DNA from: Streptomyces sp. TS71-3
Lineage (GTDB): Bacteria > Actinomycetota > Actinomycetes > Streptomycetales > Streptomycetaceae
DNA length: 64,000 nt
Assembly: GCF_018327685.1 (NCBI RefSeq)
Contig: NZ_BNEL01000001.1
Span: 5,581,501 to 5,645,500 of the forward strand
Reading direction: 5' to 3'
How positions within the stretch are numbered: position 1 is the first letter of the stretch; each line of letters starts with the position of its first letter. This document shows, one piece after another, positions 13,530-54,812 of the stretch. The notes below the pieces were generated by a model that was not told the origin of the DNA, did no database searches, and was given only the letters and a program-made list of their open reading frames with translations. Made by a program: the position numbers and the translations under genes.

Positions 13530-15067
13530 CGCTCCACTCCCTCTCCCGCGCCGCGCGGCCTTCCCGGACGGAGCACCTCTGCCGGGCGGCCGTCCGCAAC
13601 CGCCCCCGCCCCGTGGGCCACCGGCGGCCTCCCCTGCGGACCTTCCGCCCCGGCCGCCTCAGCGGCCGCGCACACCGCACGGCAGATCCGGGCCACGTCC
13701 TCGTCGCCCGTGACGTAGGGGGGCATGGTGTACAGCAGGTCGCCGAACGGCCTGATCCAGACACCCGCGTCAACGGCCGCCCGGGTCGCCGCGGCCATAC
13801 CCCGCTCGTCCAGAGGGCGTTCCAGCTGCACCACGCCGATCGCGCCGAGCACCCGTACGTCACGGACCCCGGGCAGCGCGGCGGCCGGCCCGAGCCCGGC
13901 ACGCAGGCCCCGCTCGATGCGCCGTACCTCGGCGGCCCAGTCCTGCGCGAGGAGCAGCGAGACGGAGGCGTCCGCGACGGCCGCGGCCAGCGGGTTTCCC
14001 ATGAACGTCGGCCCGTGTGCCAGTACCGGCACCTCGCCGCGGGCGATGCCGTCCGCCACGCGCGCGGTGCACAGCGTGGCCGCCATCGTCAGATAGCCGC
14101 CGGTCAGGGCCTTGCCCACGCACATCACATCGGGGGTGACACCGGCCTGTTCGGCCGCGAACAGCGTGCCCGTGCGGCCGAAGCCGGTGGCGATCTCGTC
14201 GAACACGAGCAGCACGTCGTGCCGGTCGCACGCCTCGCGGAGCGTCCGCAGATAGCGGGGCGAGTGGAAGCGCATCCCGCCCGCCCCCTGCACCACGGGC
14301 TCCACGATCACCGCGGCCAGCTCCCCGGCATGCCGGGCCACGAGGTCGTGCAGCTGCTCCGCGTACCGCTCGTCGTACTCGGCGGGCGGCGGGTCCGCGA
14401 AGATCTGGCGCGGCAGGACACCGGACCACAGCGCGTGCATGCCGCCGTCCGGATCGCAGACCGACATCGGCTGCCAGGTGTCGCCGTGGTAGCCGCCGCG
14501 CCAGGTCAGCAGCCTGTGCTTGGCCGGGCGGCCCAGGGAGCGCCAGTACTGGAGGCACATCTTGAGGGCGACCTCGACGGAGACCGATCCGGAGTCCGCG
14601 AGGAAGACGTGCTCCAGCCCCTCGGGCGTGATGTCGACAAGTCGCTTCGACAGTCGGACGGCGGGCTCGTGGGTGAGCCCGCCGAACATGACATGGCTCA
14701 TCCGGTCGAGCTGCCGCCGCGCCGCCTCGTTGAGCACGGGGTGGTTGTAGCCGTGTATCGCCGACCACCACGACGCCATGGCGTCCACCAGCTCGCGGCC
14801 GTCCGCGAGCCGGAGCCTGACCCCGGAGGCGGAGGCGACGAGCAGCGGTTCCTGGCGGCCCGGCATGGGGCCGTACGGGTGCCAGACGTGCCGGCGGTCC
14901 AGCTCCAGCAGCTCGGGCAGGTCCCGTGGCCCGGGCGTGTCCTGCGGTTCGAGCAGGTCCTGCGGCCCGGGCGTGTCCTGCGGTTCGAGCAGGTCCCGTG
15001 GCCCGGGGGCGTCCTGCGGTTGGGGCAGGTCCCCGGCCCCGGCTCCCTCCCGCGCCGCCTCAGGCAT
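13526..15067 (-). CDS. bioA: Adenosylmethionine-8-amino-7-oxononanoate aminotransferase
   Basis: A 513-residue PLP enzyme making DAPA from KAPA with SAM as amino donor. Diagnostic blocks: [11 protein letters not shown] near the start, [37 protein letters not shown] and the PLP lysine in [12 protein letters not shown]. The start is not certain: ATG 15067 overlaps the bioB end by eight bases, and a GTG at 15094 would add nine residues. Between the start and the conserved core lies a 12-residue repeat present three times. Part of the bioB-bioA-bioD operon. Confidence 0.93.
14918..15025. repeat. Three 36-bp tandem repeats in the 5' part of bioA
   Basis: Units at 14918-14953, 14954-14989 and 14990-15025 differ at only a few positions. 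On the coding strand they encode a dodecapeptide of the form [12 protein letters not shown]. The repeat number keeps the frame, so length variants would be tolerated. Confidence 0.9.
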
Positions 15068-16322
15068 TGGGCGCGAGATCGGTGCCGGCGCCACGGCGGC
15101 GTACGGTCACCAGGTCGGCGTGCGAGACGGGGGCGGGCCGCTCGGCGGCAGCCGCGTCGCCCTCGCCGTCTGTCTCACCGTGGCGGACGGCGCCCGCCGT
15201 GACAGCTGCCGAGGCACCCGCGGAAGCACCAGCCCCCGCGCAGCCCCCGGAGTCCCCGCTCCCGCAGGCATCGCCCGTGCAGGCGCCGCCGTCCGCCGGT
15301 GCCTGGCCGCCGGGCGTGCGCCGGTGGGCGGGCAGGGTCGTCGTGTCGGTGCCCTCCACCTCGAAGCCGGCGTCCGCGATCATGTCGAGGTCAGCCTTGC
15401 CCGCCTGGCCCTCGCTGGTCAGGTAGTCGCCGAGGAAGATCGAGTTGGCGAGGTGCAGGGCGAGGGGTTGCAGGGTGCGCAGGTGGATCTCGCGCCCGCC
15501 CGCGATCCGCACCTCGGCGTCCTGGCAGACGAGGCGGACCATGGCCAGGATGCGCAGGCACCGCTGCGGCGTCAGGTTCCACTCCTTCGCGAGCGGGGTG
15601 CCCTCGAAGGGGATGAGGAAGTTCACCGGCACCGAGTCCGCGTTCAGCGCACGCAGGGAGAAGACCACGTCGACCAGGTCCTCGTCCGTCTCGCCCATGC
15701 CCGCGATCAGCCCGGAGCAGGCCGACAGGCCGGCCGCCCGCGCCCGCTGCACGGTGTCCACCCGGTCGTCGTAGGTGTGCGTCGTGGTGATCTCGCCGTA
15801 GGTCGCGGCCGAGGTGTTCAGGTTGTGGTTGTAGGCGTCGGCTCCCGCCGCGCGCAGCCGCTCGGCCTGCCCCGCCGAGAGCAGTCCGAGGCAGGCGCAC
15901 ACCTCCACGTCCTCGTGTCGCTCCTTGATGGCCGCGATGGTGCCCGAGACGCGGTCCACGTCGCGGTCCGTCGGCCCCCTGCCGCTGGCGACCAGGCAGA
16001 CCCGCTTGGCGCCGCCCGCGACACCGGCCGCAGCCGTCCGTGCCGCCTCGTCCGCCTTCAGCCAGGTGTACTTGAGGATGCCCGCCTGGGAGCCGAGCCG
16101 CTGCGAGCAGTACGAGCAGTCCTCCGGGCAGAGGCCCGACTTGAGGTTGACCAGGTAGTTGAGCTTGACCCGTCGCCCGAACCAGTGCCTGCGCACCCGT
16201 CCGGCCGCCGCCACCACATCGAGGAGTTCGTCGTCGGAGGTCGCCAGTACGGCGAGCGCTTCCTCGCGGGTCGGCGCCTCGCACCGGAGCCCCTTGTCCA
16301 CCAGCGTGTTCAGCAGGTCCAT
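15060..16322 (-). CDS. bioB: Biotin synthase
   Basis: A 420-residue radical SAM enzyme inserting sulfur into dethiobiotin. The radical SAM cluster motif is CPEDCSYC (Cys 65, 69, 72); YNHNLNTS and the [10 protein letters not shown] block confirm BioB. The core ends near residue 335; the remaining ~85 residues are a Gly/Ala/Cys-rich low-complexity tail, longer than in enterobacterial BioB. ATG 16322 gives the normal N terminus. It is divergent from bioF and leads bioB-bioA-bioD. Confidence 0.95.
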
Positions 16323-41794: not shown

Positions 41795-43019
<1,225 letters not shown>

Positions 43020-43112: not shown

Positions 43113-43565
43113 TCAAACGGCTGTTGGGAGAATTTTGGGAGATCGTTTTCGCGTGGGAGCGAGCGGGGGGTACGGGCCGAACTCCCGGCGATCCACGACG
43201 ACCTTCAACGAGTCCTCCCAGAGTCCTTGGAGGTACTCGGCGATCGACAGCTCCATCGCCAGCGTCACGTGAGAATACGTGCCCTCGACGCCCTGGAGTA
43301 CATGCCCCATCCGTGCTTCCACCGCAACCCAAGGCACTTTACCCTCGTCGAGCCAGACCTTCTGTGAGTGGCGCAGCCCGTGCGGCGTGAGCCCCTTGAC
43401 TCCCAGGACCGGGCGTATAAGGACGGAACCGAGGGCCCGCGCGGTCGCGCCGGGCCAGACTGCCCGGACGGCTACTCCCTCCAGGCGCCGTCCTGGGATC
43501 CGGACACGCTGGTGTGCCGCCGCGACGGCGCCCCACCGCCGCCCGACGATGGCGGCAGCACGCCG
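43113..43565 (-). pseudogene. Broken tyrosine recombinase (integrase)
   Basis: The last ~95 codons (43113-43400) are an intact catalytic C terminus: PHGLRHS supplies His and Arg, ARMGH the second His and EGTYSHVT the nucleophile Tyr. Upstream, similarity (AVWPGATARALGS) continues to about 43470, then shifts to another frame that ends in a stop at 43472-43474 and reads LPPSS...HTSVSGSQDGAW above it. The N-terminal DNA-binding domain is missing. It lies next to the left repeat and points toward it, as integrases usually do. Confidence 0.75.
43125..43142. other. Possible integrase arm sites, left end
   Basis: TGGGAGA occurs at 43125-43131 and 43136-43142, an 11-bp period, with a 6/7 match (TGGGAGC) at 43154-43160. 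The identical pair with the same period occurs at the right end (51355-51372), in the same orientation. The left pair lies inside the integrase 3' coding end. Confidence 0.55.
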
Positions 43566-43615
43566 CAGGCCGCCGGCCTCGACCCGACCCGCCGCCAGTA
43601 CCCCTGAACCACCAC

Positions 43616-43645
43616 GCCCCCTCTCGCCTTCGGGCGGGAGGGGGC
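43616..43645. terminator. Strong terminator hairpin with TTCG loop
   Basis: A 13-bp stem (one G-T pair), GCCCCCTCTCGCC (43616-43628) against GGCGGGAGGGGGC (43633-43645), closes a TTCG tetraloop; on the plus strand GATTTTG follows. It lies just past the stop of the GNAT gene (minus strand), which it could also serve. Confidence 0.88.
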
Positions 43646-43663
43646 GATTTTGTCGTACACGGG

Positions 43664-44107
43664 TCACAGGGCTGCTCGGTAGAACACCTTGCTGTCGTCC
43701 TGTGGAACACCCAGCGCCTCATACAGGGCGAGCGCAGCCGGGTTATCTGTGTCGGCGGTCCACTCGATTCGCGAGCAGCCCAGGGCCGCGGCCTCTTCGC
43801 GGAGTGCCGTCATCAGCGCACGGGCGACACCGCGGCGGCGAGCACCTGCGATGACGAAGAGTTCCTTGAGGAACAAGCTGGTGTCGGCGCCTGCCGCAGG
43901 CCAGAGGAGAGAGTAGGAGGCGAGGCCGAGGACCGCAGCGCCCTCGCGGGCAAGGAGAACGGTCGCTACTGGGTGGTCGCCGAACAGGGCGTTCCTGATC
44001 TGGCCGAGGTCTCCGGGGACTGCCTGCCCGCCGTAGTACGCCTCGATCTCGCCGAGGATCTCAGAGAGGGCTTCAGCGTCATCCGCTGTCGCTCTGTTGA
44101 TCTTCAC
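43664..44107 (-). CDS. GNAT-family N-acetyltransferase
   Basis: A 147-residue acetyltransferase. The acetyl-CoA loop reads VIAGARRRGVARALM (Q/RxxGxG/A type) and the C-terminal TADTDNPAALALYEALG is a typical motif B end. GTG 44107 has GGAG eight bases upstream and lies 29 bases inside the end of the XRE gene, so it is co-translated with that regulator. Substrate unknown; could modify a small molecule or a peptide. Confidence 0.87.
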   Translation of the reverse strand: MKINRATADDAEALSEILGEIEAYYGGQAVPGDLGQIRNALFGDHPVATVLLAREGAAVLGLASYSLLWPAAGADTSLFLKELFVIAGARRRGVARALMTALREEAAALGCSRIEWTADTDNPAALALYEALGVPQDDSKVFYRAAL

Positions 44108-45287
44108 GCCCGCGCTCCGTCTCGCCAGGGGGCAGCGCCAAGATCTCGCGCAGTGCCCGTACCTCGTGCACCTGCTGTGCACCGGGCGGCACCCTAGTTG
44201 CGACGTCCTGCGCGCGGTAGATGATCAGAGCTGAGCGGTGCGCGGGAGCAAGGCTGACGATTGTGCGCGTGGCCAGGTCAGCGGCTCCGGCCGGGTCACC
44301 ATCCAGCGAGGTACACATGGCCGCGTCGAGTGCGACCAAGGCGCGATCCATCCGTTCGGCGTCCGGATACAGCTCCAGTGCCCGATCTTGTTCTGCACGG
44401 GCGCGCACGGTCTTCCCGAGGTGCGTCAACGCGTTGCCCATGTGGAAACGCAACTGGTTCTCGCTGTAGCCGAAGGCTGATCCGATCTGCTCGTCTTCGG
44501 GCAGGCGTGCGAGCGCACTCTCTGCCGCGGCCAGGGCCTCATCCGCAGCTTCGGCATCACCGAGCCGGGCGTGCGCCCGGGCTTCGAGCGGCGCCGCGAG
44601 AGCTGGTCCGACACAGGGCAGGCCGCCGGCGAGCTGCTGTGCGTGGGCGGACAGTTCGACCGCGCCGTAGAAGTCGCCGCCGTAGAAGCATTGGTATGCC
44701 TCTTGCGCGTATGCCCAGGACAGCGTGGCTCGATCATCGGCCGCCGCAGCGAACTGCCGTGCCGTGCGCCACCACGACAGCGATCGGTCATCGCCCAGTT
44801 TCAGCAACGTCAGAGCTGTGAGCCCTGACATACGAGCTGCGGCCACCAGTAACCGACGACGTACTTGGGGTGGGTGTCGGCGTGTCAGCAGTACCCGCAG
44901 GTCCTGGAAGTCGGCGAGCAGTTCAGGGAAGTGCGTCATCTCGGGCCGGTAGCGAGTAGCACGCCCGTGACGGTCCACCGTCCACTCGATCTCATCCAGT
45001 GAGCTGTCTGCAAGTGGTCCTGCCGCGAGTGCCTCATGGAGGCCGGCTTGAAGGGCATCAGCCTGCTCCAGCGGCGAGGTTCCGGGACGGACGTCCGCGA
45101 GGGCGATCAGTAGACCCTCGGCACCGACCGCCGCGTCAAGAGCGCGAGCCGTCTGCGCTGTCGGCCGCCGTCGACCATTCTCCAAGTCCGCCACGTAGGA
45201 CTTTCCGCAGGCTGCGAGCGCGGCGACATCGCGCAGGCTACGGCTTCCTCGCAGCCGGCGTAGCGCTTCGCCGAAGGTCTCTGCCAT
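44079..45287 (-). CDS. XRE-family regulator with tetratricopeptide-like C-terminal region
   Basis: A 402-residue regulator. Helix-turn-helix at about 4-55 (FGEALRRLRGSRSLRDVAALAACGKSYVADLENGRRRPTAQTARAL). From about 150 onward it is all-helical with TPR-like repeats (WAYAQEAYQCFYGGDFYGAVELSAHA, EARAHARLGDAEAADEALAAAESALARL). Such regulators are often controlled by small peptides or proteins. ATG 45287 follows GGGAGAGG. Divergent from a run of small genes with a three-half-site operator between. Confidence 0.87.
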   Translation of the reverse strand: MAETFGEALRRLRGSRSLRDVAALAACGKSYVADLENGRRRPTAQTARALDAAVGAEGLLIALADVRPGTSPLEQADALQAGLHEALAAGPLADSSLDEIEWTVDRHGRATRYRPEMTHFPELLADFQDLRVLLTRRHPPQVRRRLLVAAARMSGLTALTLLKLGDDRSLSWWRTARQFAAAADDRATLSWAYAQEAYQCFYGGDFYGAVELSAHAQQLAGGLPCVGPALAAPLEARAHARLGDAEAADEALAAAESALARLPEDEQIGSAFGYSENQLRFHMGNALTHLGKTVRARAEQDRALELYPDAERMDRALVALDAAMCTSLDGDPAGAADLATRTIVSLAPAHRSALIIYRAQDVATRVPPGAQQVHEVRALREILALPPGETERGREDQQSDSG

Positions 45288-45308
45288 GGGCCTCTCCCGG
45301 CGTCCGCC

Positions 45309-45478: not shown

Positions 45479-45877
45479 GTGCGCGAACATAACGCCCCTT
45501 CAGGGCGGTTGAGAAGTGGGCCTCCGGACATCGAGCCGATGCGCGCTGCCGCTGCCGAGCTGCTCGACGAGGGTGCGCCGCTGCCGCGGTTTGATGACCT
45601 CACCGAGCTGACGGCCCGGTTGCGGGTTGCCCTCCGGGCGCTGGTCCCGCAGGTGGAGGAAGTGGCGCGGGAGCGTCCCGAGGACGACGCCGAGCGGGTC
45701 AGGGCGCGGAGCAGCGCGCGGGCCTCCGTCGAGACCGCCCGTGCGTGTCTGGACGCTGGCCCCGGCTCGGGCCTGGTATCCGCGAAAGACCACGCCCTCA
45801 GCCTCGCCCGCGAGGTGGCGGGGTTGTGCCGCCACCTTGAGAAGTTGACCGGCGCGCGCACCGCGGAGCCGGCATGA
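45479..45877 (+). CDS. DUF6415-family protein
   Basis: A 132-residue helical protein (IEPMRAAAAELLDEGAPLPRFDDLTELTARLRVALRALVPQVEE...) that matches the DUF6415 pattern as I recall it; members are found beside natural-product genes and in integrated elements of Streptomyces. GTG 45479 follows GAGGAG. First of five overlapping or abutting small genes; its stop overlaps the next start (ATGA). Confidence 0.8.
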   Translation: MREHNAPSGRLRSGPPDIEPMRAAAAELLDEGAPLPRFDDLTELTARLRVALRALVPQVEEVARERPEDDAERVRARSSARASVETARACLDAGPGSGLVSAKDHALSLAREVAGLCRHLEKLTGARTAEPA

Positions 45878-46134
45878 GCAGCCTGGTGCCTGCCGGGTGG
45901 AGGGTCGGGCCGGAGTGGGCAGACGGCGTCGTACGGCCGCCGGTGCGGCTGGTGATGTGCGTGGAGTGCCCCGCCCGGTCCGATCAGCCGACCCTCACCG
46001 GCCGGGCCGCAGGACGGCAGTGGGCGGCCGGCCACGCCGACGTCACCGGCCACACCCGGTTCGTGGAGTCCTCCCACCAGATCGTCAGGGCCAGCCTGGT
46101 GCCGGCGGGGTTCACGCAGCAGGGGGCGCCGTGA
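45874..46134 (+). CDS. Small hypothetical protein, DUF7848-like
   Basis: An 86-residue protein (RLVMCVECPARSDQPTLTGRAAGRQWAAGHADVTGHTRFVE) with a CxxC and conserved Trp/His pattern, likely a small metal-binding fold. Overlaps both neighbours by four bases, so translation is coupled. The family name is a tentative recollection. Confidence 0.72.
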   Translation: MSSLVPAGWRVGPEWADGVVRPPVRLVMCVECPARSDQPTLTGRAAGRQWAAGHADVTGHTRFVESSHQIVRASLVPAGFTQQGAP

Positions 46135-46355: not shown

Positions 46356-46565
46356 ATGATGTCTACGACATGCCCGCACGAGCCGCCGTGCCCGTCCGCC
46401 TTCGCTGCGGACCGGGAGGCCGCGCACCCGGTGGTGCGCCACCCCGAGCAGGGCTGGAGCCTCCTGTGCAACGGGGTTCTGCTGTTCGAGGACACCGGTG
46501 AACTGCTGCCGGACGGGCGGGTCATCGCGCCGCACCGGCCGGCCGCAGCCCTGGCGGTGGCCTGA
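46356..46565 (+). CDS. DUF5999-family protein
   Basis: A 69-residue protein with the DUF5999 pattern: CPHEPPCPSAFAADREAAHPV, then HPEQGWSLLCNGVLLFEDTG and ELLPDGRVIAPHRP. Cys and His residues suggest zinc binding. Common in streptomycetes, role unknown. ATG 46356 or 46359. Confidence 0.87.
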   Translation: MMSTTCPHEPPCPSAFAADREAAHPVVRHPEQGWSLLCNGVLLFEDTGELLPDGRVIAPHRPAAALAVA

Positions 46566-47309: not shown

Positions 47310-47609
47310 GTGACAACTGCCATAGACCGTGAGGCTTTCCCCCTCACCCCGCCTGGAGGCCGGACCCCCTTCAGCGCGGAGGCACCGTCCGACCCGGGGG
47401 TCCGGCCGTGGGCGCTGCGGTTCGCTCGCGTCCCCGACTCGACCGGGGCCATCCGCGTCCCGAAGCACGCCTACGACTACGGCCGCCAGGTCAACATGTT
47501 GGTCGATGGCAGCGGCCTGCTGACGTGCATGGGTGGGACGCACGAACCCACCGTGCCGGACGGTTCCGTGTCGAACCCGCCGCCGCTGGACGAGGGGCCG
47601 AAGGACTGA
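47310..47609 (+). CDS. ATP-grasp-modified RiPP precursor (graspetide precursor)
   Basis: A 99-residue precursor of the GRASP_targ type. The leader has RPWALRF (32-38), equivalent to the family's PWxLR block, and YDYGRQ (55-60). The C-terminal core holds acceptor Thr/Ser (72, 77, 81, 86, 88) and donor Asp/Glu (79, 84, 94, 95, 99). Asp-Gly pairs at 66-67 and 84-85 are candidate aspartimide sites. GTG 47310 follows GGAG. The stop overlaps the ligase start (TGATG). Confidence 0.87.
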   Translation: MTTAIDREAFPLTPPGGRTPFSAEAPSDPGVRPWALRFARVPDSTGAIRVPKHAYDYGRQVNMLVDGSGLLTCMGGTHEPTVPDGSVSNPPPLDEGPKD

Positions 47610-48571
47610 TGACCGCGCCTGTCCTGATCGTGGCAGCCTCCGACGACTGGCCCACAGACCGGGTCGTCGTCGAGCTGGAGCAGCGTGGAGTCGACGTGTT
47701 CCGCATGGACACAGTCGACTTCCCCCAGCGGCTCGCGCTGGCCGGCCGGATCGACCAGGTATCCGGGTGGACGGGCGAACTCGCTACCGAGCAGCGGACG
47801 GTGGAGTTGTCCCGGGTCGGCGCGGTGTACTACCGCGCCCCCGGGGCGTTCCGCTTCCCCGAGGGGATGTCTGGGCCGGAGGAGAGGTTCGCTGCCGCTC
47901 AGGCCCGCGCTGGCCTCGGTGGTGTCCTGTCCGCGTTGGACTGCCGTTGGGTCAACCACCCGGCTGCCATGGCCCGTGCCGAGTACAAGCCCGTGCAGCT
48001 CGCTGCCGCGCGCTCCTGTGGGCTGCGTATCCCGCCCACCCTGATCACCAACCGGCCCGACGACATCCGCGCGTTCACCGCCGACACCGGCGGCGACGTC
48101 GTGTGCAAGCCCGTTGCTTCACCCGTGCTCATCGAGGACGGCCAGCTCAAGTCGGTGTACACGCAGCGCCTGAGCCTGTCGGACCTGGACGACCTGCGGG
48201 GGATCGACACCACCGCGCACCTCTTTCAGGCGTGGGTCGACAAGGACTACGAGGTGCGCCTGACCGTGGTCGGCGCGCGCCTGCTCGCTGCCGCCATCCA
48301 CGCCGGCAGTGACGCCGCGCACGAGGACTGGCGCAGCGACTACGGCGCCCTCAGCTACACGACCACGACGGTGCCCGAGCACGTCGCTGCCGGAATGCGG
48401 CGCCTGATGAAGCGGCTTGGGCTGAGCTACGGGGCGGCAGACTTCATCGTGAGCCCGGACGGGCGGTGGACCTTCCTGGAGGTCAACCCGTGCGGGCAGT
48501 GGGACTGGATCCAGGGGGCGACCGGCCTGCCGATCGCCGAAGCCATCGCTGATGAAATGCAAGGAGTCTGA
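47609..48571 (+). CDS. ATP-grasp peptide ligase (graspetide maturase)
   Basis: A 320-residue ATP-grasp enzyme of the TgmB type that forms ester or amide crosslinks in its precursor using ATP. Seen: N-terminal LIVAASDDWPTDRVVVELE, the precursor-binding half with VYYRAPGAFRFPEG, the ATP-binding Lys in VVCKPV, QAWVDKDYEVRLTVVG, and Mg ligands in FLEVNPCGQWDW. It overlaps the precursor and the methyltransferase by one base each, so the three are co-translated. Confidence 0.92.
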   Translation: MTAPVLIVAASDDWPTDRVVVELEQRGVDVFRMDTVDFPQRLALAGRIDQVSGWTGELATEQRTVELSRVGAVYYRAPGAFRFPEGMSGPEERFAAAQARAGLGGVLSALDCRWVNHPAAMARAEYKPVQLAAARSCGLRIPPTLITNRPDDIRAFTADTGGDVVCKPVASPVLIEDGQLKSVYTQRLSLSDLDDLRGIDTTAHLFQAWVDKDYEVRLTVVGARLLAAAIHAGSDAAHEDWRSDYGALSYTTTTVPEHVAAGMRRLMKRLGLSYGAADFIVSPDGRWTFLEVNPCGQWDWIQGATGLPIAEAIADEMQGV

Positions 48572-49704
48572 TGGACTGGAAGCCGCACGCGGCTGCCCTC
48601 GCGGCCCAGGTGTCCTACCGGGGGTCGGGTTGGTGGGCGCCGATCATGGAGACGCCCCGGCACGTGCTCGTCGAACGCTGGCTCACCCCGGGCGCCGGCG
48701 GCTGGACAGCCGTTGACGGGCCCTCGGATGAGGAGGCGTGGGCGAAGGCGGCGTACGCGGATGCCACGCTCGTCACCCGGGTCGGGCCCGTGCACGCCGA
48801 CCACGCCCGCCCGGACCAGGTGGTGAGCGGCCTGCCCACGTCGTCGTCGACGCTGCCGAGCCTGGTCGTGACGATGCTGCGGCACGGCCGGCTCACGCCC
48901 GGCGTGCGGATGTTGGACCTCGCCACCGGCTCCGGCTACAGCGCTGCTCTGGCGTGTCAGCGTCTCGGGGACGGGCAGGTGACCACGCTGGACGTCGACC
49001 CGTACTTGACGCAGGCCGCGGCCGAGCGCCTCGCCCGGATCGGCCGGCACCCGGCCGTGGTGACCGCCGACGGCACAGGCGAGCTGCCCGGTACCTTCGA
49101 CCGGATCGTGTCCATGGTGTCCGTGCCGCGCATCCCCTCCTCGTGGTTGGCCGCCCTCGCGCCCGGCGGACGGCTGATGACCACGGTGGCAGGGACGGGC
49201 CTGATCGTCACCGCGGACAAGACCGATGACGGCGGCGCCCGAGGACGCGTCGAATGGGACCGGGCAGCGTTCATGACCACCCGCGCCGGCGACGACTACC
49301 CGCCCGGGCTCAGCGACGTCTTCGCGACGGCTGCGGAAGCGGACGGCGAGGAGGTCACCGAGTCCCCGTTCCCGGTGCTGGACGTCATGCAGGCCTGGGA
49401 GGTGTGGTCCATGCTGTCGCTGACCGTGCCCGGCATCGAGCACCGTATGGGGACGGGGGACGACGGCGGCCGTATGACGTGGCTGCTGCACGCCGATGGC
49501 TCCTGGGCCCGCGGCCACACCAAGCCGGGCGAACGCACGGCGACGGTCCATCAGGGCGGCCCACGCCGCCTCTACGACCGGCTCGACCGTATCCGCTGGC
49601 GCTGGCTGGAGCACGGCGAACTCCCCGTGTACGGAGCGAAGGTCACCGTCACACCTGATGGCGAGACCACGCTCTCACGCGGCGGATGGGCGACCACCTT
49701 GTGA
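48571..49704 (+). CDS. PIMT-like methyltransferase of a graspetide system
   Basis: A 377-residue protein related to protein-L-isoaspartate O-methyltransferase. The SAM motif is LDLATGSGYSAAL (115-127); TSSSTLPSLVVTML (90-103) is the PIMT substrate-side block, and the C-terminal ~160 residues are the extension specific to RiPP-associated members. Homologues in fuscimiditide and amycolimiditide clusters methylate an Asp of the crosslinked peptide, which then closes to an aspartimide. The same outcome is inferred here. Confidence 0.88.
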   Translation: MDWKPHAAALAAQVSYRGSGWWAPIMETPRHVLVERWLTPGAGGWTAVDGPSDEEAWAKAAYADATLVTRVGPVHADHARPDQVVSGLPTSSSTLPSLVVTMLRHGRLTPGVRMLDLATGSGYSAALACQRLGDGQVTTLDVDPYLTQAAAERLARIGRHPAVVTADGTGELPGTFDRIVSMVSVPRIPSSWLAALAPGGRLMTTVAGTGLIVTADKTDDGGARGRVEWDRAAFMTTRAGDDYPPGLSDVFATAAEADGEEVTESPFPVLDVMQAWEVWSMLSLTVPGIEHRMGTGDDGGRMTWLLHADGSWARGHTKPGERTATVHQGGPRRLYDRLDRIRWRWLEHGELPVYGAKVTVTPDGETTLSRGGWATTL

Positions 49705-49780: not shown

Positions 49781-50098
49781 ATGGACGAGGAGCCCCTGGA
49801 GGAGTGGGCAGCACGGCGTGACCAGCATCGCCCCGCGATTGGGGAACGCCGGGCCGCTCCGTTGGACGGCCAGGAGGAGCACGGCTCCCACGTCGCCCCA
49901 GACGCTCCGCGCGGCATCCAGGAGTGGGACGGGCACCAGTGGGTCCCGGTCGGAATCGCCGAGGACTTCACCGCCGCCGCTGGCGAGGCTGGAGATGATG
50001 CCGCAGCTCGGGCTGAGCGCGTGCCTTTCCCGCGGTTCAGCAAGCTGCCGCCGAGGCCCGAGCCATGGCGGCCGACCGAGCCGTTCCACCGGCCTTGA
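49781..50098 (+). CDS. DUF6087-family protein
   Basis: A 105-residue protein with the DUF6087 pattern (MDEEPLEEWAARRDQHRPAIGERRAAPL, then HVAPDAPRGIQEWDGHQWVPVG). These occur widely in Streptomyces, often in integrated elements; function unknown. 76 bases after the methyltransferase. Confidence 0.82.
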   Translation: MDEEPLEEWAARRDQHRPAIGERRAAPLDGQEEHGSHVAPDAPRGIQEWDGHQWVPVGIAEDFTAAAGEAGDDAAARAERVPFPRFSKLPPRPEPWRPTEPFHRP

Positions 50099-50144: not shown

Positions 50145-50378
50145 TCACGCCACGAGGTCGGCGAGCGGGACGTGAAGCGCGGCCGCGATCAGGATCAGGT
50201 TGTCGAGCAGCGGTGAAGCGTGGCCCTGTTCGATGCGGTTGATGGTCTGTCGGTCGAGGCCGGCGCGCTCGGCCAGGGCCTCTTGGGTGAGGTTGGCGTG
50301 GAGGCGTGCCGTGCGGATGTGCTCGCCGATGGCCCGGCGGCGGGCGATGACCCAGGCGGGCGGCGGAGCGGACGACAC
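50145..50378 (-). CDS. Small XRE-type helix-turn-helix protein
   Basis: A 77-residue Cro/C1-type DNA-binding protein (IGEHIRTARLHANLTQEALAERAGLDRQTINRIEQGHASPLLDNL). No extra domain. Could be the element's repressor or excision controller. GTG 50378; a GATCATGATC palindrome lies 17 bases upstream and may be its operator. Confidence 0.87.
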   Translation of the reverse strand: MSSAPPPAWVIARRRAIGEHIRTARLHANLTQEALAERAGLDRQTINRIEQGHASPLLDNLILIAAALHVPLADLVA

Positions 50379-51502: not shown

Positions 51503-51595
<93 letters not shown>

Positions 51596-52362: not shown

Positions 52363-53733
52363 TCACCAGGTGACCGGAAGGGCCTCCGGGCCCCGGATCA
52401 GCGCGCCGAGGCGCCACGGGACGTCCTCGGGGGGCACCGCGAGCCGCAGACCGGGCATCCGGTCGAGCAGGGTGTTCACCATCAGCTCGGTCTCCATCCG
52501 GGCGAGGATGCCGCCGGGGCAGTAGTGCGGGCCGTGCCCGAAGGAGACGTGCGGGTTCGGCATCCGCTCGAAGTCGATCCGGTCCGGGTCGGGGAAGACC
52601 TCCGGATCGCGGTTGGCCGCCAGGTACGACACGTAGACCGGCTCGCCCTTGCGGATCTCGGCCCCCCTGATGACCACGTCCTCCATGGCGATCCGGGACA
52701 GGCCCACCGCGGAGCGGTGCGGGATGTACCGCAGCAGCTCGTCGATGGCCTGGGCGCGCATCTCGGGCTCCGCGCGCAGCCGCTCGGCCAGCTCGGGCCG
52801 GGTCAGCAGCAGGTAGAACATCTGGCCGCTGTTGTTGGTGACCGCCTCGCCGCCGATCTGGATCAGCACCGCGAGGCCCACCGCCTCGTCCAGGCTCATC
52901 TCCTGACGGCCGACCGCGGCGCCGAGCAGCGACGTGACGTCCTCCGCGGTGCTGCCGCGCCGGGACCGGATCAGCTCGGTGAAGCAGGCCGCCATCTCGT
53001 CCTTCGCCTGTTCGCTGACCTTCGCGCCGTGCGACGACGACAGGATGAGCTGGGTCCAGGTGTGCATCCTCTCGTGGCCCTCCTCCGGCACCCCCATCAG
53101 CTCGCAGATGACGGCGATGGGGAAGGGGCTGAGCACCCGCTCCGTGAGGTCGGCGGGCGGGCCCTCGGCCAGCAGCCGGTCCACCATCTCGTGCAGCGCT
53201 GCCGCCGACCGCTCCCGCACCGACTCCACACCCCGCGCCGTGAAGGCCGGCGCCACCGCCCGCCGCAGCCGGGTGTGCTCCGGCGGATCCGCGAAGCCGA
53301 CCGCGCCCGGCACCGGAATGAAGTGCGGGGCCAACCGGGTGACCTGGTAGTCCATCACGGCCGCCCTGCTGAACCGGGCGTCGTTCGTCACCATCCGCAC
53401 ATCGTCGTGGCGGGTGACGAGCCAGGCCCAGCCCTCGCCGTTCGGCAGCCGGATCCGGGTCACCGGGCCCTCGCGCATCAGCTCGGCGAGCACCGGGTCG
53501 AACTCCACGGCGGTCAGGTCGAGCGCCGGCCAGAACCGCACGGGCGGCAGGGTGCGGGTGTCGGCGCCCGCACCGACCGGGCAGCCCCCGCCGGCCGGCG
53601 CCTGCGCCTGCGCACCCACCGAGGTGTCGGTACCGGCCGAGCCGCCGGGGCCGCCGGTGCCCTCCCCGCCCTTCGGAGGCCGGTCGGCCGGCTCCTCCAG
53701 GGCCGTGGGGCTGGTTGTCGTGTCGTCGGTCAT
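52363..53733 (-). CDS. Cytochrome P450 of the THN/flaviolin pathway
   Basis: A 456-residue P450. The heme-ligand loop is FGHGPHYCPGG, the ExxR-type and I-helix regions are present (IQIGGEAVTNNSGQMF; the latter replaces the common AGxxT). The N-terminal ~60 residues are low complexity. It overlaps rppA by four bases (ATGA). P450s in this position polymerise or couple flaviolin/THN units into pigments (P450mel, CYP158A2); which reaction occurs here is not shown. Confidence 0.92.
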   Translation of the reverse strand: MTDDTTTSPTALEEPADRPPKGGEGTGGPGGSAGTDTSVGAQAQAPAGGGCPVGAGADTRTLPPVRFWPALDLTAVEFDPVLAELMREGPVTRIRLPNGEGWAWLVTRHDDVRMVTNDARFSRAAVMDYQVTRLAPHFIPVPGAVGFADPPEHTRLRRAVAPAFTARGVESVRERSAAALHEMVDRLLAEGPPADLTERVLSPFPIAVICELMGVPEEGHERMHTWTQLILSSSHGAKVSEQAKDEMAACFTELIRSRRGSTAEDVTSLLGAAVGRQEMSLDEAVGLAVLIQIGGEAVTNNSGQMFYLLLTRPELAERLRAEPEMRAQAIDELLRYIPHRSAVGLSRIAMEDVVIRGAEIRKGEPVYVSYLAANRDPEVFPDPDRIDFERMPNPHVSFGHGPHYCPGGILARMETELMVNTLLDRMPGLRLAVPPEDVPWRLGALIRGPEALPVTW

Positions 53734-54812
53734 ACGGTGACCTCCACCGTGGCGGGGACCCGGTCGTGGGACGTCCAGCGGCCGAGCGCCATCTCGGCCG
53801 TGATGCCCGGTCCGAATCCGGCGAGCAGACCACGGGCACCGTCCTTGGCGCCCCCTTCGTCGAACAGCCTGCGCAGCGCGTCCAGGACCACGGCGCTGGC
53901 GATGTTCCCGTACTCCGTGAGCGTCTCCCTGCTGAAGCGGAACGCTTTGGGAGGGACCTCCAGGTACTTGGTGAGGTCGTCCAGGATTCTGGGGCCGCCG
54001 GCGTGGATGATGTAGAAGTCCAGGTCGGAGGCGTCCCAGCCGTGGAGCCCCGCGAGCTCCTTGAGCGCCGGAGCGAGCGGCTCCATGGTGCCGGGCACCC
54101 GCTTGTCGAGGAGGAAGTGGAAGCCGGTCTCGCGGACGTCGTAGGCGATCCAGTCCTCGGTCTTCGGGATCAGGTACGAGCCGTTGCGCACGAGTTGGAC
54201 GCCGGTGCCGCCGGAGCCGCGCACCACCGCGGCCGCGATCCCGTCGCCGAACAGCCCGTTGGAGAGCAGCGAGCCGACCCCGAGGTCCGTCGGCTGGTAG
54301 CACAGCGAGCAGAACTCGCAGGCGACGATCAGCGCGTTCTTCTCGGGATAGGCGGTGCAGAAGTCGTGGGCGCGGTTGATCGCGGCACCGCCCGCGGCGC
54401 AGCCGAGCTGGGCGATCGGTATCTGGCGGGTGTTGCTGGGGAAGTCCAGCGCGTTGATGAGCCAGGCGGTGAGCGACGGCATCATGAATCCCGTGCAGGA
54501 CACGTAGATGATCACGTCGATGTCTTCGGGGGTGAGGTCGGCGTCGCCGAGGGCGCTCAGCACGACGCCGGGCACGCGCGCCTTGGCCTCGGCCTCGTAG
54601 AGCTTGTTGCGCTGCTCGAACCCCGGGTGCTTCAGGGTCTCCGAGATGGGCTGCACGATGTGCCGGGTGAGGACCCCGGTGTTCCCGATCAGCCGTAGCG
54701 CGAGCGGTAGTTGGGGGTTGTCGGCGTGGAGGGTGCGCGCGAGGTCGAGCGTCTCCTCCATGGTGATGACGTGTTCCGGAACGGAGACCGTCGGCTTGCA
54801 CAGAGTGGCCAT
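53730..54812 (-). CDS. rppA: 1,3,6,8-Tetrahydroxynaphthalene synthase (type III PKS)
   Basis: A 360-residue chalcone-synthase-like enzyme making THN from five malonyl-CoA. Catalytic Cys 138 in QLGCAAGG, His in IIHAGGP and Asn in YGNIAS form the triad; Cys 106 in YVSCTG is characteristic of RppA. ATG 54812; the frame is open upstream but the protein start fits the family. First gene of rppA-P450-cupin. Confidence 0.95.
   Translation of the reverse strand: MATLCKPTVSVPEHVITMEETLDLARTLHADNPQLPLALRLIGNTGVLTRHIVQPISETLKHPGFEQRNKLYEAEAKARVPGVVLSALGDADLTPEDIDVIIYVSCTGFMMPSLTAWLINALDFPSNTRQIPIAQLGCAAGGAAINRAHDFCTAYPEKNALIVACEFCSLCYQPTDLGVGSLLSNGLFGDGIAAAVVRGSGGTGVQLVRNGSYLIPKTEDWIAYDVRETGFHFLLDKRVPGTMEPLAPALKELAGLHGWDASDLDFYIIHAGGPRILDDLTKYLEVPPKAFRFSRETLTEYGNIASAVVLDALRRLFDEGGAKDGARGLLAGFGPGITAEMALGRWTSHDRVPATVEVTV

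Follow-up and report, generated by a model that had tools for sequence, protein, structure and literature searches.

Three genes on the forward strand lie end to end in the window, the whole stretch of 64,000 nucleotides of Streptomyces sp. TS71-3 DNA that was analyzed. The first encodes a precursor of 99 amino acids from a GTG start (tgmA, 47310..47609), the second a graspetide ATP-grasp ligase of 320 amino acids (tgmB, 47609..48571) and the third a PIMT-like O-methyltransferase (PAMT) of 377 amino acids (48571..49704), which groups with PAMTs that partner radical-SAM enzymes; tgmA and tgmB are the NCBI names for such genes. GGAG lies six bases 5' of the precursor GTG at 47310. The two one-base TGATG overlaps reported by the first-pass annotation were present, the precursor stop (47607-47609) sharing one base with the ATP-grasp ATG at 47609 and the ATP-grasp stop (48569-48571) sharing one with the PAMT ATG at 48571. 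A search of the precursor against graspetide precursor families, which that annotation had proposed, gave a match to TIGR04186 over its cut-off (40.5 bits against 25). The ATP-grasp enzyme matched TIGR04187, the actinobacterial graspetide ligase family, over its cut-off (409 bits against 350) and has solved relatives in 5ig9 and 7m4s, and the methyltransferase matched PF01135 (53 bits, cut-off 20.3). As precursor, ligase and methyltransferase all scored above the cut-offs of these models, the cassette is not a chance arrangement. With TIGR04188, a graspetide-system model, the methyltransferase scored 253 bits, under the cut-off of 380. Judged by its precursor and ligase sequences, the cassette is that of a group 13 graspetide ('graspimiditide', tgmA/tgmB), an established kind and no new class.

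The integrated element

The cassette lies between two forward-strand copies of a 93-nt direct repeat which enclose 8.6 kb and match at 92 of 93 positions. The left copy (attL, 42927..43019) covers the 3' end, with the stop codon, of an acyl-CoA dehydrogenase gene (41795-43018), and the right copy (attR) is at 51503..51595. From left to right the element contains the C-terminal remnant of a tyrosine integrase (43113..43484, reverse strand), a GNAT acetyltransferase (43664..44107, reverse; PF00583), a helix-turn-helix regulator (44079..45290, reverse; PF13560), three forward-strand genes for a DUF6415 protein (45479..45877; PF19979), a DUF7848 protein (45943..46134; PF25232) and a DUF5999 protein (46356..46565; PF19462), the cassette, a DUF6087 protein (49781..50098, forward; PF19565) which is a frequent downstream neighbor of the cassette, and an XRE-type helix-turn-helix protein (50145..50378, reverse; PF01381). 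No Pfam match to transfer or replication families was obtained among the open reading frames of the element, several small ones of which match no family.

Forty-one genomes were searched for the unoccupied site, giving 30 loci with the acyl-CoA dehydrogenase gene end, one of them the window. At 5 of the 29 loci from other genomes (L093, L100, L107, L113 and L114) the site was empty, with the right flank found within the next hundred bases; at the others the right flank of the window was absent from the 1.5 kb past the gene end, with only a 60-base match at L104. The description of the region as a mobile island whose graspetide cassette is complete and includes a PIMT-like enzyme was borne out by the family models, the att repeats with their exact ends and the empty sites. 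A tRNA attachment site was considered and rejected, the sole tRNA call (15014-15097) overlapping a predicted coding sequence far from the element. Just to the right of the element, genes for a cytochrome P450 and a type III polyketide synthase (52363-54812) apparently form a separate chromosomal cluster.

An intact integrase was looked for in the element and only the remnant was found, and the element is probably now immobile by itself. The remnant matches residues 364-481 of an intact relative (L167; open frame of 489 amino acids, PF00589), which lies in another genome beside the end of a gene sharing 72% identity across 345 nt with the acyl-CoA dehydrogenase gene of the window; the 18 kb covered there contained no tgm genes. 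Streptomyces plasmids have short matches (74-204 bases, 70-80%) to the stretch upstream of the remnant, 43453-43656, and three of these matches lie under genes annotated 'collagen-like protein'; foreign DNA may have replaced the front part of the integrase. At another locus (L021), a GNAT acetyltransferase in the same order (71%), a regulator (68%) and an XRE protein (58%) related to those of the element surround a cassette whose PAMT is of the other type described below. No att repeats were detected around L021 or L167 in the stretches searched (minimum 26 nt), apart from a local 36-nt pair at L167.

Precursor conservation and predicted product

Precursor homologues at E <= 1e-3 numbered 128 with that of the window counted. 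From the best 120, 115 were kept in the alignment; one fusion was dropped, and so were four sequences whose leaders were missing or gapped. T77, D84, G85, P90, P91, L93, E95, G96, K98 and D99 were invariant in all 115 relatives, D94 and P83 were found in 114 and T81 in 113. In the leader, the motif RPWA (residues 32-35) was retained as R in 114, P in 115 and W in 112 of 115, with mostly A, I or V at the fourth position; the leader motif of group 13 is RPFG-like. Mean pairwise identity of the 115 precursors was 0.59 over residues 1-74 and 0.82 over residues 75-99, and the core was more alike than the leader in 98.7% of 6,555 pairs. In 42 of 45 coding sequences (L033, L049 and L054 dropped) the ratio pN/pS was lower in the core (0.32) than in the leader (0.57). 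Taken together, conservation and pN/pS of these sequences point to selection keeping the peptide. As a peculiarity of this family, stronger conservation of core than leader was weakened by the other group 13 precursors, which gave 0.68 for core and 0.62 for leader in a small sample (13 of 31 loci, those matched by a sequence pattern). One homologue (P0078) consists of a leader fused to what appears by eye to be a PAMT C-terminal end.

On this conservation, and by comparison with the fuscimiditide stem, the core was placed at about residues 75-99 (47532..47606, forward strand). It had been assigned earlier to residues 66-99 with two Asp-Gly pairs, an assignment which did not hold. Only D84-G85 (47559-47564) is in the conserved core; the first pair (66-67) falls in the variable leader, where residue 66 is D in 65 of 115, and residue 68 is inserted in this precursor alone among the 115 rows. 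The arrangement of core residues had also been taken as the precursor's own. It is in fact nearly invariant in the 115 relatives, and its absence from described products is compatible with the literature search, in which six core fragments gave no match in literature text, the key graspetide papers and all supplements lying outside its scope. Cores that belong to no named product are common, since in the text of PMC8939145 504 of the 958 precursors in the largest cluster of that survey match no described core motif. Sequence searches of solved structures gave no meaningful hit to the precursor (best E 0.75) and no match for two core peptides.

The ATP-grasp enzyme would bind the leader through RPWA and make two nested side-chain esters, an outer one from T77 to D99 and an inner one from T81 to D94 or E95, with donors (T77, T81) and acceptors (D94/E95, D99) assigned from conservation and by analogy with fuscimiditide. 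The product would be a stem with a loop of 12 or 13 residues, set by the inner acceptor. According to the text of PMC12291112, fuscimiditide has esters T3-D22 and T7-D18, a stem TMRVT/DVEKD and a 10-residue loop, and Ser can stand in for Thr. In the window precursor T77-HEP-T81 stands opposite E95-GPK-D99 at the spacing of this stem, or with one residue more if D94 is taken, and the order of Thr/Asp pairs around a loop with a modified Asp fits, the loop being 12 or 13 residues against the known 10-12.

The PAMT would then methylate D84 in the loop of the cyclized peptide; the methyl ester would cyclize onto G85 as an aspartimide, most of which would later open to isoaspartate. The modified Asp precedes Gly in all four characterized members as given in the text of PMC13001092, and the course from methyl ester through aspartimide to isoaspartate is that described for the class in the text of PMC10787088, from which we infer it for the window enzyme by analogy. 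From sequence and analogy, the predicted product is a fuscimiditide-like stem-loop held by two ester cross-links, with an aspartimide at D84. The expected mass changes are -36 Da with the ligase and -54 Da with the aspartimide, or -36 Da after hydrolysis. Asp-Gly was kept in 43 of 44 readable cores from the loci, counting the window itself as well as a duplicate of one contig. At L016, next to a type A PAMT (defined below) with an open frame, the precursor reads PGG where the others read PDG; because of this replacement its product would be without aspartimide.

Whether the inner ester runs from T81 to E95 rather than D94 is close to evenly balanced, and we lean slightly away from it. A T81-E95 ester would give a symmetric stem, nested in register with T77-D99 as T7-D18 is with T3-D22 in fuscimiditide, and E95 is invariant (115/115); D94, however, is conserved as well (114/115). 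A Thr-Glu ester would also depart from what the texts of PMC13001092 and PMC12291112 describe, the four characterized graspimiditides using Thr and Asp and the fuscimiditide ligase ThfB having rejected Glu in place of Asp. The loop would have 13 residues, against 10-12 in known members, and one ThfA variant with an asymmetric stem was modified well (PMC12291112). An inner link to E95, if true, would extend the range of reactions known for group 13 ligases.

Two methyltransferase lineages beside one peptide

Loci centered on the ligase were compared in 52 cases (47 from named genomes, three viral contigs and two plasmids), and a PAMT match was found in 50 of them, L047 and L048 being the exceptions. 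The PAMTs fell into two types, type A with 64-83% identity to that of the window (23 loci) and type B with 30-38% (25 loci). The PAMTs of L045 (58%, 3 kb from a ligase of 44% identity) and L046 (45%, partial) fitted neither type. Ligases were 63-84% identical to that of the window, with only 44-55% at L042, L044, L045 and L050, and a precursor was not detected at L051. The core of one plasmid cassette (L126), MQTHTPTIPDGSVDNPPPLDEGPKD, is of the window type, and a ligase 69% identical to that of the window stands there beside a PAMT of 32% identity, while the window PAMT is 57% identical to a PAMT with a radical-SAM neighbor (L128).

In the PAMT tree (58 rows, L058 left out) type B was recovered with support of 100/100, type A (20 sampled sequences) with 99/94 and the radical-SAM set with 93/93, the last under the program's star mark. 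In the ligase tree (44 rows), by comparison, type B fell inside type A, its sisters being two type A rows (97/90). L042 was on a long branch and its placement was unsure in both trees. Scores against TIGR04188 were 253-280 bits for type A (4 tested) and 249-266 for the radical-SAM type (3), and 339-358 for type B (3) with 449 for a plasmid tgmC (L136). The cut-off of 380 is no hard bar to membership, because the three type B PAMTs miss it and only L136 passes. WXXXGXP was absent from type A (0/20), in which 19 of 20 have WXXXGXXP instead; it was present in 22 of 26 sequences of type B plus L136, and the radical-SAM type had neither motif (0/11). The window PAMT thus misses two features of graspimiditide PAMTs, the TIGR04188 cut-off and WXXXGXP. 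An AlphaFold model of this enzyme (29 rows, pLDDT 88.8) has after the methyltransferase domain a predicted beta-alpha-beta4-alpha order, as reported for RiPP PAMTs; its first PDB match was 1DL5 (TMq 0.51), with poor whole-chain superposition (rmsd 9.3).

Trees, motifs and TIGR04188 scores agree, and these sequence comparisons suggest that two PAMT lineages serve one peptide. The PAMT tree set against the ligase tree, together with the identities at L126, implies at least one PAMT exchange. We propose that it took place between orphan radical-SAM/PAMT pairs and this cassette lineage, in either direction. The claim that the cassette is the exact set known for fuscimiditide stands for the ATP-grasp enzyme and the precursor, which are of that family, and fails for the methyltransferase, which groups with radical-SAM-partner enzymes and not with type B. 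An exchange was not found described in the text of PMC10787088 and PMC13001092 that was covered, figures and supplements lying outside the scope, and the published PAMT tree may already show this grouping.

The next nearest PAMTs on plasmids, among the best 60 of 139 records, were 48-57% identical to that of the window (26 records, some of them near-copies). Eleven of these 26 were opened and in ten a radical-SAM gene was directly upstream; in the other (L124) a radical-SAM fragment was upstream, its core gone and the SPASM part, tail and PAMT remaining. A G-x-LPVYG-like motif was found in 8 of 11 radical-SAM-partner PAMTs. The text of PMC10787088 reports 249 such two-gene clusters, with substrate not known and likewise no separate precursor. 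By eye, no shared small precursor gene was seen upstream of the radical-SAM genes at ten loci (L124 excluded, only 239 bases at L132). The radical-SAM/SPASM proteins of all 11 loci (L005, L124, L127-L135) end in a Cys/Pro/Asp-rich tail starting C-x-P-D, and among 120 database homologues (P0242-P0361) at least three Cys were present in 91 of 110 excisable tails, genomic neighbors not being part of this count. The SPASM hairpin and the tail Asp-Gly were not supported as a fixed PAMT site: two of the 11 proteins have N or S in place of the SPASM Asp, and Asp-Gly occurs in 4 of 11 tails.

Two further readings bear on this enzyme. One combines a chimeric pathway, in which a radical-SAM-derived PAMT installs on the near-fixed hairpin the aspartimide that the distant lineage installs in sister cassettes, with a bicyclic product holding a Thr-Glu ester and, by extension, with the radical-SAM tails as PAMT substrates; as a whole it seems to us unlikely. 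If the radical-SAM enzymes' own tails were the substrate, the missing separate precursor would be explained, but the reading is made less likely by the low number of tails with Asp-Gly. Less probable again is that the window PAMT leaves the graspetide alone and still acts on the substrate it had before. Outside the cassette, the closest relatives of this PAMT among those opened are indeed radical-SAM partners, from clusters with no known precursor in the text of PMC10787088. Against this, the 20 type A PAMTs sampled cluster together and are found next to this ligase family (L051, without a detected precursor, among the loci), the PAMT gene overlaps the ligase gene in the window cassette, and D84-G85 is present beside both PAMT types in the 43 of 44 readable cores.

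Distribution and comparison with known systems

TIGR04186 was matched over cut-off in 211 of 295 sampled genomes of the genus, and the precursor subfamily in 15 of 291 at E < 1e-16 and 19 at E <= 1e-3, the host included. The host genome has a second TIGR04186 match at C1:2634303. It also has five further PAMT-like matches, two of them at C1:14363-15316 and C1:2632298-2633305, the latter about 1 kb from the second TIGR04186 precursor. Among the plasmid records in the matches listed, 12 of 20 have tgmA annotated. The suggestion that this RiPP spreads horizontally is supported by the att repeats, the empty sites, plasmid-borne tgmA and the patchy distribution (15/291). Phage portal genes or homologues were seen near tgm or radical-SAM/PAMT cassettes at L003, L012/L054 and L135, which are two circular plasmids and one contig that appears among the viral contigs as well, and phage-plasmids are possible carriers of such cassettes. 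On the linear plasmids L125 (NBC_00209), L122 (NBC_00726) and L123 (NBC_00708) the PAMT is split into two frames beside tgmA/tgmB, or is present without annotated tgm, and the cassette may be decaying there.

That the window cassette is itself a decaying passenger, with integrase lost and tgmA/tgmB lost in some plasmid relatives, is improbable: the element retains only the integrase remnant and plasmid NBC_00726 keeps a PAMT with no tgmA/tgmB beside it in its incomplete gene table, but none of the three cassette genes in the window is truncated or interrupted, the core has been conserved and a single base of 93 separates the two att repeats. The reading which best explains the whole, to which we assign a probability of about 80%, is an 8.6-kb element with a graspimiditide operon whose product would have two esters and an aspartimide at D84, and with an exchanged PAMT.

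The new point is a PAMT from a different branch than in many relatives, the kind of cassette being already known. RiPP-associated PAMTs are described in the text of PMC13001092 as highly specific for one folded substrate, and the loci compared here offer a natural test pair: one near-invariant peptide and one ATP-grasp family with two PAMT lineages about a third identical. Comparison of both lineages would reveal which substrate features a PAMT recognizes. The link to radical-SAM/PAMT pairs also gives a handle on the 249 clusters without known substrate in the text of PMC10787088, and the bounded element and plasmid copies document movement of a graspetide operon between actinomycetes.

Among known systems, the radical-SAM/PAMT clusters resemble the window in their PAMTs (48-57% identical in the best 60 of 139 plasmid records, with similar TIGR04188 scores) and differ in having a radical-SAM/SPASM partner and no known precursor, as described in the text of PMC10787088, where the window has a precursor and an ATP-grasp enzyme. 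Amycolimiditide, albusimiditide and SsfA(BM), as presented in the text of PMC13001092, share with it group 13 membership, the stem-loop and modification of a loop Asp, the last two predicted here. Fuscimiditide (ThfA/ThfB/ThfM, Thermobifida fusca), in the text of PMC12291112 and PMC13003496, has the same set of precursor, ATP-grasp enzyme and methyltransferase, an RPxx leader motif, Thr donors four residues apart, a K-D stem end and a loop aspartimide, which for the window is a prediction. The window precursor differs from it in a loop of 12-13 rather than 10 residues and in a D-E doublet at the inner acceptor. The four characterized members have two to five esters in the text of PMC13001092, fuscimiditide having two, and the window core has two conserved Thr only.
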